From a virus, in the IMG/VR virus record IMGVR_UViG_3300042691_016187, positions 1 through 33,725 of that record: a stretch of DNA of 33,725 bases; one strand, written 5' to 3'. Position 1 is the stretch's first letter; every line of letters begins with the position of its first letter. Positions 2,895-14,875 of the stretch are shown here, in pieces. Made by a program: the position numbers and the translations under genes. A model generated the notes under the pieces. The model searched no databases and was not told the DNA's origin. It was given only the letters and a program-made list of their open reading frames with translations.

Positions 2895-3329
2895 ATGTCA
2901 TGGCTTTATCAAAACAATGTTATTGAAACCTTACCAGAAGATTGCGTGGGTTTTGTATATATAATAACCAATTTAATTAATAATAAAAAATACATAGGCA
3001 AAAAACTGGCAAAATTTTCAAAAACAACTTATAAAACAATAAAACTTAAAAACGGCACTAAAAAGAAAAAGAAAATTAGATCAAAAATAGATAGCGATTG
3101 GCTTACATATTATGGTTCAAGTCCAAATTTAACAGAAGATATAAACAAATTAGGCAAAGATCATTTTAAAAGAGAAATATTGTATTTTTGTAAATCAAAA
3201 GCGGAATGTAGTTATATCGAAGCAAAACTACAATTTGAAAATTGTGTATTAGAATCAGATGACTATTACAACAACAATATTCAAATCCGCGTCCATGGCT
3301 CCCACATTAAAGGCAAATTAAACGGTTAA
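2895..3329 (+). CDS. GIY-YIG family nuclease, single domain
   Basis: This 144-aa protein carries a GIY-YIG-type core near its N-terminus: GFVYII at about residues 19-24, then a YIGKK turn at about 34-38. A Lys-rich insertion follows, then a conserved-looking DWLTYYGSS segment and a glutamate in the SYIEAKL helix that could be the metal-binding residue. Very similar stand-alone proteins occur across T4-like marine phages, often annotated as homing or Seg-like endonucleases. No NUMOD or HNH DNA-binding module is fused to it, so its target specificity is not evident. It lies between the gp46 unit and a gene-free, structured 524-nt stretch, a position compatible with a mobile or recently inserted nuclease. 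Its base composition is very A+T-rich, about 23% G+C by hand count over 2941-3120. Confidence 0.82.
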   Translation: MSWLYQNNVIETLPEDCVGFVYIITNLINNKKYIGKKLAKFSKTTYKTIKLKNGTKKKKKIRSKIDSDWLTYYGSSPNLTEDINKLGKDHFKREILYFCKSKAECSYIEAKLQFENCVLESDDYYNNNIQIRVHGSHIKGKLNG

Positions 3330-3853
3330 CGGCTAACGCAGGCCTATTTCGTGCGTATATGATAACGGGACCTCGGGTCACCGGGACATAAATCTCTGCC
3401 GTAAGAGTACTCAACCACTACCCATAATGGATGTAGATCGCTAATAAGACCTGCGATTTGGTTGTTTGAATAGGATATTAAGGCAAAATGATGATCTAAA
3501 AAGATCAGGTTACATTACACAGATAGCGTTGAGTAATGTAATTGCCGTTGTGAAGACAGGATGAGTAGGTACCGGACAACCGCCTACGCTATGTACTATT
3601 AATCGCGCATTAGAGTGTTAATGCTTGATTAATGTTACATTATAGTTCTAACGCTATGTGACTGTGCTACTCGAATGATGCACTCTTGGCCCTAACGGGC
3701 TTTAGTGTGACCGCTTAATCTGAATGATATTAATACACTGCTTCGTTTTACTACGCAGCATTAAATTCTTAAATAAATTGCTCTGAATCGAAGATGAAAG
3801 AGCAAACGAACGCAGTTCGTTTATAAATAAAGAAAACTATTTAGGAATTTAAA
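3330..3853 (+). ncRNA. candidate large structured noncoding RNA (gene-free region)
   Basis: No credible protein gene lies here. G+C is about 42% over 3361-3720 by hand count, well above the neighbouring gene. Several perfect stems are present: ATCGC 3437-3441 with GCGAT 3453-3457; TGATCT-AAAA-AGATCA 3492-3507; TACATTAC 3511-3518 with GTAATGTA 3533-3540. The last two sit together inside a closing GGCAA/TTGCC stem (3482-3486 with 3542-3546), forming a three-way junction. ATTAATC/GATTAAT (3598-3604 with 3627-3633) encloses GCATTA/TAATGC. GCCC-TAAC-GGGC is at 3689-3700, and AAACGAAC-GCA-GTTCGTTT at 3804-3822. A possible pseudoknot pairs GTTGT/ACAAC with GTAGG/CCTAC (3547-3587). No tRNA T-arm or tmRNA/RNase P signature was seen. 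The strand is assumed to be plus from the neighbours. Size and complexity recall phage giant RNAs such as GOLLD or ROOL, but I cannot assign a family. Confidence 0.5.
3822..3829 (+). promoter_or_regulatory. T4-type late promoter box (TATAAATA)
   Basis: This is an exact match to the T4 late-promoter -10 octamer TATAAATA. It lies 24 nt upstream of the ATG at 3854 and directly abuts the 8-bp hairpin 3804-3822. In T4 such boxes are read by host RNA polymerase carrying gp55 and gp33 with the gp45 clamp. The spacing puts transcription start at about 3835, leaving a short leader. A weaker TTAAATAA lies upstream at about 3769-3776. Confidence 0.7.
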
Positions 3854-4336
3854 ATGCGTATTCATGAACTTGTTTTAGAAAATGATCAATTGGATGAATT
3901 AACTGCTCGTGGAGTAGGTAGAGGCATAGGAAAAGTTGCAGGACATACTGTAAGAGGTACGTCCGACTTTTTCTCGGGAATAAAGCAAGGATACAAACAA
4001 GCAAGAAGTGGAACAGCACCTGCTAGTTCAGGAACACCTAGTTCTGCTGCACAAAGTGGTGTAGGTACAACTTCAAGTGGAACAGCACCTGCTAGTTCAG
4101 GAACACCTAGTTCTGCTGCACAAAGTAGTGCTCCGCCAGCAATGAAAGCAGTAGAAATTGTTAAAGATTTAGATGGAGTATGGCAAAAAGCAACTGCTGA
4201 TCAAGGAAGTGAAACTACTTCACCTCAGGTACAAAATCAAATTAGAACTATGGCTAAACAAGCAGGTTTAACAGGACAAACAATAAAAGAAAACAAAGTA
4301 GGTTACTCTAGTAAATTTTTAGGAATTACAATTTAA
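3854..4336 (+). CDS. hypothetical late protein with duplicated Ser/Ala/Thr/Pro-rich linker
   Basis: This 160-aa protein is read from the late promoter just upstream. The N-terminal 50 residues are charged and Gly-rich (GVGRGIGKVAGH, then FFSGIKQGYKQA). The centre is a low-complexity linker in which the 17-residue unit SGTAPASSGTPSSAAQS occurs twice. The C-terminal 65 residues look helical. There is no signal peptide, membrane segment or catalytic motif. Its stop codon shares two bases with the stop of the convergent minus-strand gene. Late expression beside baseplate and tape-measure genes suggests a virion or assembly role, but I do not recognise the family. Confidence 0.75.
   Translation: MRIHELVLENDQLDELTARGVGRGIGKVAGHTVRGTSDFFSGIKQGYKQARSGTAPASSGTPSSAAQSGVGTTSSGTAPASSGTPSSAAQSSAPPAMKAVEIVKDLDGVWQKATADQGSETTSPQVQNQIRTMAKQAGLTGQTIKENKVGYSSKFLGITI
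4006..4126 (+). repeat. 52-bp exact direct repeat inside the 160-aa gene
   Basis: Bases 4006-4057 and 4075-4126 are identical over 52 bp at a 69-bp offset (23 codons), keeping the reading frame. The exact identity, including third codon positions, points to a recent in-frame duplication of the linker. Confidence 0.9.
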
Positions 4337-14123: not shown

Positions 14124-14147
14124 AAAACCCGCTTCGGCGGGTTTTTT
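14124..14147 (+). terminator. intrinsic terminator after gp23
   Basis: CCCGC-TTCG-GCGGG (14128-14141) forms a perfect GC stem with a UUCG tetraloop, flanked by AAAA upstream and a run of six T downstream. It is a textbook rho-independent terminator closing the head operon. Confidence 0.95.
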
Positions 14148-14160
14148 ATTAAATAAAGAG

Positions 14161-14199
14161 TCTAGATTATTATGCGGCACCCACCGCGTAGAGCCTAGA
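14161..14199 (+). promoter_or_regulatory. structured leader upstream of the 215-aa virion gene
   Basis: TCTAG 14161-14165 can pair with CTAGA 14195-14199, enclosing GCGG-CACCCA-CCGC (14174-14187). It lies between the gp23 terminator and the AAGGAG of the next gene, so it would form a stem-loop in the 5' leader. A TTAAATAA sequence near 14149, resembling the late-promoter box, precedes it. Confidence 0.4.
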
Positions 14200-14227
14200 A
14201 CGCTCATTATTATCAAGGAGAAAACAA

Positions 14228-14875
14228 ATGGGACGTCCTATTAAATCAAAATATTTCGGAACACGTAAAGGCCAAGGTGTCGGCGGCGAAAGCGTTAGTT
14301 TAGTTACTATTGGAACTAATCCAGTATCTACACAAACTGTTACTGTTGTGTTCGGAGCACCTAATCTTGCAGGTGGAACACAGGCAACTGGTTCTGCTGT
14401 TAAAACAGGTAATACAGTTACTAGTGTATTAATTACTCAAGTTGGTAGTGGTTATACTGCTGCTCCTTCGGTTACATTTACAGGAACAAATATGTCTGTT
14501 ATAGGAAGCGCTACTGCTTCGTTGACTACTAGTGTTACTGATGTAATTGCATGTACTGCATACTTATCAACAGGATCAAGTGCTGTAACTTCTGATATTC
14601 AAGAACAAGTTGCTAGTAAAAAATATCGTGTAGTTAATGCACAAGGTGTAGGCGGAGTTAAATTAGTTCCAACTGATTCATTATCTGCTGGGCAAATGTA
14701 TATCGTAGCAACTGATACTAACGGTAGTACATATTACGTTAAAAAATTAACTGCTCGTCGTGCTATATTAGTACAAAAAACAGTTAACGGTTCATTTTTA
14801 TTTGATACTAACGAAGCAGCAGGTTGGAGTTTAGATGCTGCTTCAACAGGTGTAGTATTAATTGACAATAGATAA
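14228..14875 (+). CDS. beta-rich virion structural protein downstream of gp23
   Basis: This 215-aa protein has a strong AAGGAG ribosome-binding site. It starts MGRPIKSKYFG, followed by Gly/Thr/Val-rich beta-strand sequence that includes the motif VGSGYTAAPSVTFTG (about residues 77-91), seen in many phage structural proteins. The C-terminal half is also beta-rich (YYVKKLTARRAILVQKTVNG). It is monocistronic, between two strong terminators right after the capsid gene, which suggests high late expression. A capsid decoration or head-associated role is plausible but unproven. Confidence 0.75.
   Translation: MGRPIKSKYFGTRKGQGVGGESVSLVTIGTNPVSTQTVTVVFGAPNLAGGTQATGSAVKTGNTVTSVLITQVGSGYTAAPSVTFTGTNMSVIGSATASLTTSVTDVIACTAYLSTGSSAVTSDIQEQVASKKYRVVNAQGVGGVKLVPTDSLSAGQMYIVATDTNGSTYYVKKLTARRAILVQKTVNGSFLFDTNEAAGWSLDAASTGVVLIDNR

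Follow-up and report, generated by a model that had tools for sequence, protein, structure and literature searches.

A large structured RNA of freshwater T4-like phages and bacterial islands that contains the Polynucleobacter-1 motif

The RNA and its place in the phage genome

The DNA analyzed here (the window, 33,725 nt; IMG/VR record IMGVR_UViG_3300042691_016187) is a contig of a T4-like phage. A gap of 524 nt at positions 3330-3853 lies downstream of gp47- and gp46-like genes and upstream of baseplate-hub and gp20 portal genes. It directly follows a segE-type GIY-YIG endonuclease gene (2895-3329, + strand; PF19835, 2.5e-32) and is followed by a variable late-type gene on the same strand (3854-4336) that is missing in many relatives. 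No open reading frame of 60 amino acids or more lies within the gap, in agreement with a preliminary description of it as free of protein genes and rich in hairpins; the hairpins are real. Its G+C content (about 0.40-0.43) had also been described as much higher than that of its neighbors, which is correct for the upstream DNA (0.23-0.29) but not for the downstream gene (0.46 at 3901-4100). The predicted folding energy was −146.8 kcal/mol versus −121.3 ± 5.6 kcal/mol for dinucleotide shuffles (z = −4.5), and none of 100 shuffled sequences folded as well. The complementary strand gave z = −3.4.

The gap encodes a large structured noncoding RNA of about 500 bases on the + strand. It spans positions 3331-3826, with approximate ends that were set by homologue conservation and covariation. 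Databases cover the first quarter only. Positions 3331-3467 matched Rfam family RF01718 (Polynucleobacter-1) at 99 bits (gathering score 37) over the whole model (1-141), and the earlier statement that no family motif could be recognized therefore fails for the first 137 nt. No match to GOLLD, ROOL, HEARO, OLE or any other Rfam family was detected in the region up to E = 1. Polynucleobacter-1 was reported in 2010 as a candidate motif from Burkholderiales and fresh water, tentatively marked in a table as probably cis-regulatory (Weinberg et al., 2010, PMC2864571), and among the open-licence papers searched it is named only in that discovery paper.

Among 99 IMG/VR contigs reached via segE or via an RNA pattern, RF01718 was present in 71, at most once per contig even in contigs longer than 350 kb. 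The gene order gp46 - segE - RNA - baseplate-hub genes forms one locus, in which the RNA starts 0-57 nt past the end of segE in every phage with enough upstream sequence. The gp46-segE loci that lacked a match lie on contigs that simply end soon after segE. Copies of segE at other phage loci are not accompanied by the RNA, and the RNA was not found in isolate phages with segE. The early contig ends and the RNA-free segE genes elsewhere indicate that the RNA is tied to the locus and not to segE generally. What comes downstream of the phage RNA is either a convergent − gene or a + gene of variable identity, often with a TATAAATA-like box in between. In the window TATAAATA, which resembles a T4 late promoter, occurs at 3822-3829 (+) and nowhere else (5.9 occurrences expected by chance); ATAAATA is found just 3' of the RNA at 73 of 159 loci. 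The box probably serves the gene that follows, not the RNA. No convincing promoter was recognized upstream of the phage or bacterial RNAs. The product of 3854-4336 and those of the equivalent + genes in relatives are variable late-type proteins with a shared MKIxELIxE-like N-terminus, which we take to be reminiscent of T4 capsid-targeting sequences. Elsewhere in the window, positions 14152-14230 (+) matched freshwater-2 RNA (RF02980; 63.7 bits, gathering score 49.9), a candidate cis-regulatory element that ends at the start of a 215-amino acid gene (14228-14875) and is preceded, at about 14129-14148, by a GC hairpin plus T run that resembles a terminator.

Extent and secondary structure of the RNA

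Seeding with an 18-nt motif that lies beyond the Rfam model (3568-3585) yielded at least about 118 further contigs. All but one or two of the motif-seeded contigs listed matched the full-length profile, mostly end to end. Since these contigs were reached independently of the Rfam model, the full-length matches argue for one contiguous RNA. Matches to the motif in genome contigs were due to chance, with no RNA around them. The homologues are 471-585 nt long as extracted, and the 159 unique cores share a mean identity of about 54%; 143 of these are non-redundant at 92%. The RNA, of about 450-560 nt, occurs singly in the phage contigs searched, and in an alignment of 50 homologues conservation ran on to about 3838.

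Covariation was scored with a home-made R-scape-style G-test with APC, for which 40 replicates of substitutions replayed along the tree supplied the null. In the 143 non-redundant homologues covariation extended over the full length of the RNA. At E < 0.05, 55 pairs were significant, of which 41 were canonical (15 within the Rfam part and 26 beyond it). Conservation and these 26 pairs thus continue past the end of the 141-nt family, and RF01718 models only part of the RNA; the family is to be corrected, and the window is not excluded from it. By family name, the RNA is a member of RF01718. It matches the whole model and shares the freshwater/Burkholderiales setting of Polynucleobacter-1, but it is about three times longer and has features that the model lacks: three pseudoknots, one of them crossing the Rfam part, the twin heptamers and a defined genomic setting. 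As far as the open-licence papers searched show, no earlier description covers its true length, its fold, the genes around it or the heptamer rule.

A structure with three pseudoknots was written from the covarying pairs and then scored on 43 diverse members, aligned separately with MAFFT. In this alignment 91.8% of the cells were paired, a percentage that is favored by construction because the structure derives from the same family. Compensatory changes are less affected by this circularity; they were seen in 67 of 90 pairs (49 in shuffles), and double-change cells numbered 612 versus 174 when shuffled (0 of 500 shuffles reached the observed count) and 69-101 with the partners slid. Covarying pairs included 193 G-U cells and 69 A-C cells, and this excess of G-U identifies the + strand as the RNA. 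Covariation together with irregular homologue lengths rules out both chance and a decayed coding gene. The proposal of a large structured RNA is therefore borne out, with homologues, covariation, folding energy and the test for a decayed gene all in its favor.

The RNA begins with an H-type pseudoknot (3331-3356), in which 3331-3333/3342-3344 crosses 3336-3340/3352-3356. Its first helix is missing from the Rfam structure, and pairs 3332-3343, 3338-3354 and 3340-3352 covary. Five helices follow within 3357-3464, namely 3365-3371/3377-3384, 3392-3397/3404-3408, 3412-3417/3459-3464, 3418-3423/3429-3433 and 3436-3441/3453-3458. Beside a helix in this part, 3421 and 3432 form a covarying mismatch that is U-C in 86 and C-U in 57 of the 143 sequences. 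A three-way junction had been drawn at 3482-3546; covariation instead gave a small hairpin (3493-3506, stem 3493-3496/3503-3506) and a long hairpin (3511-3540) with compensatory changes in all 11 of its pairs. The loop of the long hairpin (3523-3529) pairs with 3651-3657 to form the second pseudoknot, in which 7 of 7 pairs had compensatory changes and 96.9% of the cells were paired. The third pseudoknot region (3547-3648) comprises 3547-3551/3576-3580, 3567-3569/3583-3585 and 3559-3562/3645-3648 and includes the strongly conserved block GGTACCGGACAACCGCC. Covariation backs the crossing of its first two helices, as had been suggested for 3547-3587. An extra hairpin extension (3591-3640) is shared by this phage with some relatives; most others have alignment gaps there. 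Toward the 3' end, a hairpin at 3685-3705 separates two heptamers, and two further hairpins (3781-3784/3799-3802 and 3804-3811/3815-3822, within 3781-3822) have similar counterparts in bacterial copies.

Twin heptamers that change together

The sequence GAATGAT occurs on both sides of the 3685-3705 hairpin, at 3673-3679 after an invariant CTC and at 3722-3728 after an invariant TCT (both +). The two copies covary position by position, like letter with like letter: G with G, A with A, U with U, and once C with C. They are identical in 141 of the 143 phage RNAs (25 expected), with about eleven distinct heptamers among them. The triplets before them are fixed yet different, CTC and TCT in 143 of 143, which argues against gene conversion between the copies; after the heptamers, G is mostly opposite A. 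Parsimony counts depend on the quality of the trees used. On one tree, built without the heptamer region, about 62 changes were inferred, 61 of them in the two copies together on a single branch; on another, derived from the segE region, 67 of about 69 were shared in this way. On the same two trees four ordinary base pairs gave 79 of 88 and 102 of about 112 synchronous changes. Heptamer changes were synchronous on three trees in all.

Ordinary base pairing does not explain this same-letter covariation. No third column or complementary segment that follows the heptamer was found within the RNA, and the heptamer complement, alone or with a GRG-type extension, was not enriched in the 5-15 kb flanks. 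A linker helix formed by the strands preceding the heptamers, seen by eye, scored 5.15 versus 5.11 for shuffled partners and was dismissed. A trans partner shared by both copies is the conservative reading. It would need triple changes some 60 times and is thus harder to defend than it appears, whereas direct contact or identity checking, like base pairs, needs double changes only. We therefore also consider, tentatively and as the less probable case, that the heptamers touch or are compared directly in parallel register, as a parallel-stranded homo-pair duplex or in an identity-checking step. To our knowledge, covariation analysis has not previously shown an RNA interaction of this kind. The synchronous same-letter change is a signal beyond standard RNA models.

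Bacterial loci and the likely mode of action

The RNA is common to many freshwater T4-like phages and to mobile islands of bacteria. RF01718 scored above the cut-off in 3 of 399 Burkholderiales genomes and, within one Burkholderiales genus, in 19 of 186 genomes, twice in some. The bacterial copies are about 480-560 nt long, with recognizable 5' part, twin heptamers and 3' hairpins. Their heptamers, most commonly AGCGAAA, are identical in 24 of 27 and differ at one or two positions in the other three. A divergent DUF6641 gene lies directly upstream in all 27 copies for which upstream sequence is available; with one exception, these copies were found via the RNA search. Variable cargo, on either strand, often follows the RNA, and a tyrosine recombinase of about 190-225 amino acids is encoded downstream in 23 of 28 loci, so that the islands (loci L308, L309 and L368-L390) read DUF6641 (−), RNA (+), variable cargo, small tyrosine recombinase (+). 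Nine cargo proteins were tested; one resembles AbiEi and one PDC-S14. At 10262-15738 of L309, genes with SNF2/Mrr and EH_Signature domains adjoin the RNA/DUF6641 locus, and these presumably resemble components of Zorya defence. In bacterial loci a TAAATAA box, mostly CTAAATAA, recurs some 25-75 nt ahead of the point where the Rfam match starts; it may be part of a promoter or mark a 5' extension of the RNA.

The leading candidate for a partner of the bacterial RNA is the divergent DUF6641 protein. A search of 30 phage contigs that carry the RNA found no DUF6641, so partners would have to differ between phages and bacteria; searches with one bacterial query found no relative in INPHARED or IMG/VR, and no solved structure of the family was found. 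Several DUF6641 copies occur per genome, mostly without the RNA (L330-L344), suggesting a role wider than its association with the RNA. DUF6641 was considered as a relative of SegE; the two proteins are unrelated.

These settings bear on whether the RNA could be a partner or guide of the SegE nuclease, by analogy with the reRNAs downstream of TnpB genes. The short distance to segE at every locus tested, and the persistence of the segE-RNA pair where gp46 is more distant, would fit such a role, and the reRNA or omega RNA of TnpB or IscB is likewise a structured RNA beside a nuclease gene (PMC11061315). SegE, however, is a small GIY-YIG protein, the bacterial copies adjoin DUF6641 in its place, and segE genes of isolate phages or elsewhere in phage genomes stand without the RNA, so that RNA and nuclease are not always side by side. 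Moreover, neither end of the alignment contains a hypervariable guide segment, nor does the family have a variable one, and SegE residues showed no coevolution with the heptamer beyond phylogeny. We regard this role as very improbable.

A cis-acting leader, attenuator or 3' UTR that controls segE upstream or the gene downstream would agree with the intergenic position of the RNA, often a short distance ahead of a + gene, and with its 2010 marking as probably cis-regulatory (PMC2864571). A leader is expected at a constant position upstream of a common gene; here the downstream gene changes identity, is convergent in many phages so that no + gene follows the RNA, or is absent, and where a + gene does follow, a late-promoter-like box often intervenes. 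Given the variable or convergent next gene and the bacterial cargo on either strand, the RNA is not the leader of one gene, and cis action is unlikely.

The heptamer rule itself is what would be expected of a recombination or homing site acting at the DNA level, with 7-mers analogous to the 7-bp overlap in tyrosine recombinase sites, for which only identity counts. The downstream recombinase in most bacterial loci and the variable cargo beside the RNA in phages and bacteria alike point the same way. Against this, the G-U bias and the three covarying pseudoknots reflect selection on RNA, phage loci have no recombinase nearby, the heptamers are merely about 49-75 bp apart, and their fixed flanks are not inverted repeats. 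We consider a DNA site highly doubtful.

In being large, pseudoknotted, noncoding and present in phages and bacteria, the RNA is similar to GOLLD and ROOL, large ornate RNAs of unknown function (PMC12286853). Such size, pseudoknots and distribution would suit an RNA-only homo-oligomer that has no protein partner. The RNA has no Rfam relation to GOLLD, ROOL or OLE and, at roughly 500 nt, differs from GOLLD and ROOL by its locus, with segE or with DUF6641 and a tyrosine recombinase, and by the twin-heptamer rule; a homo-oligomer of this type is improbable. OLE, also a large conserved bacterial RNA, works as a ribonucleoprotein, but differs in sequence, hosts and neighbors.

We favor, with a probability of about 0.6, a free-standing trans-acting RNA in which the twin heptamers form a paired recognition surface. 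No other feature gives as specific a hint to the mechanism as these heptamers. The RNA would be transcribed at the end of a gp47-gp46-segE operon, with the transcript cut or terminated near the 3' hairpin, and the folded molecule would act in trans, probably as a ribonucleoprotein. The 3685-3705 hairpin and the pseudoknotted core may hold the two identical heptamer modules apart as a two-fold surface that meets the same partner twice; this partner could be a protein, a nucleic acid, or the other heptamer copy.

The orphan motif of 2010 is thus one piece of a large RNA under strong selection. This RNA is widespread among freshwater T4-like phages, and bacterial islands with the same RNA can carry defence-type cargo. 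Now that the full structure, strand, locus and candidate partners are in hand, its function becomes testable. If the heptamers do touch or are compared directly, this interaction would belong to a new phage/bacterial element composed of the RNA, DUF6641, cargo and a small tyrosine recombinase.
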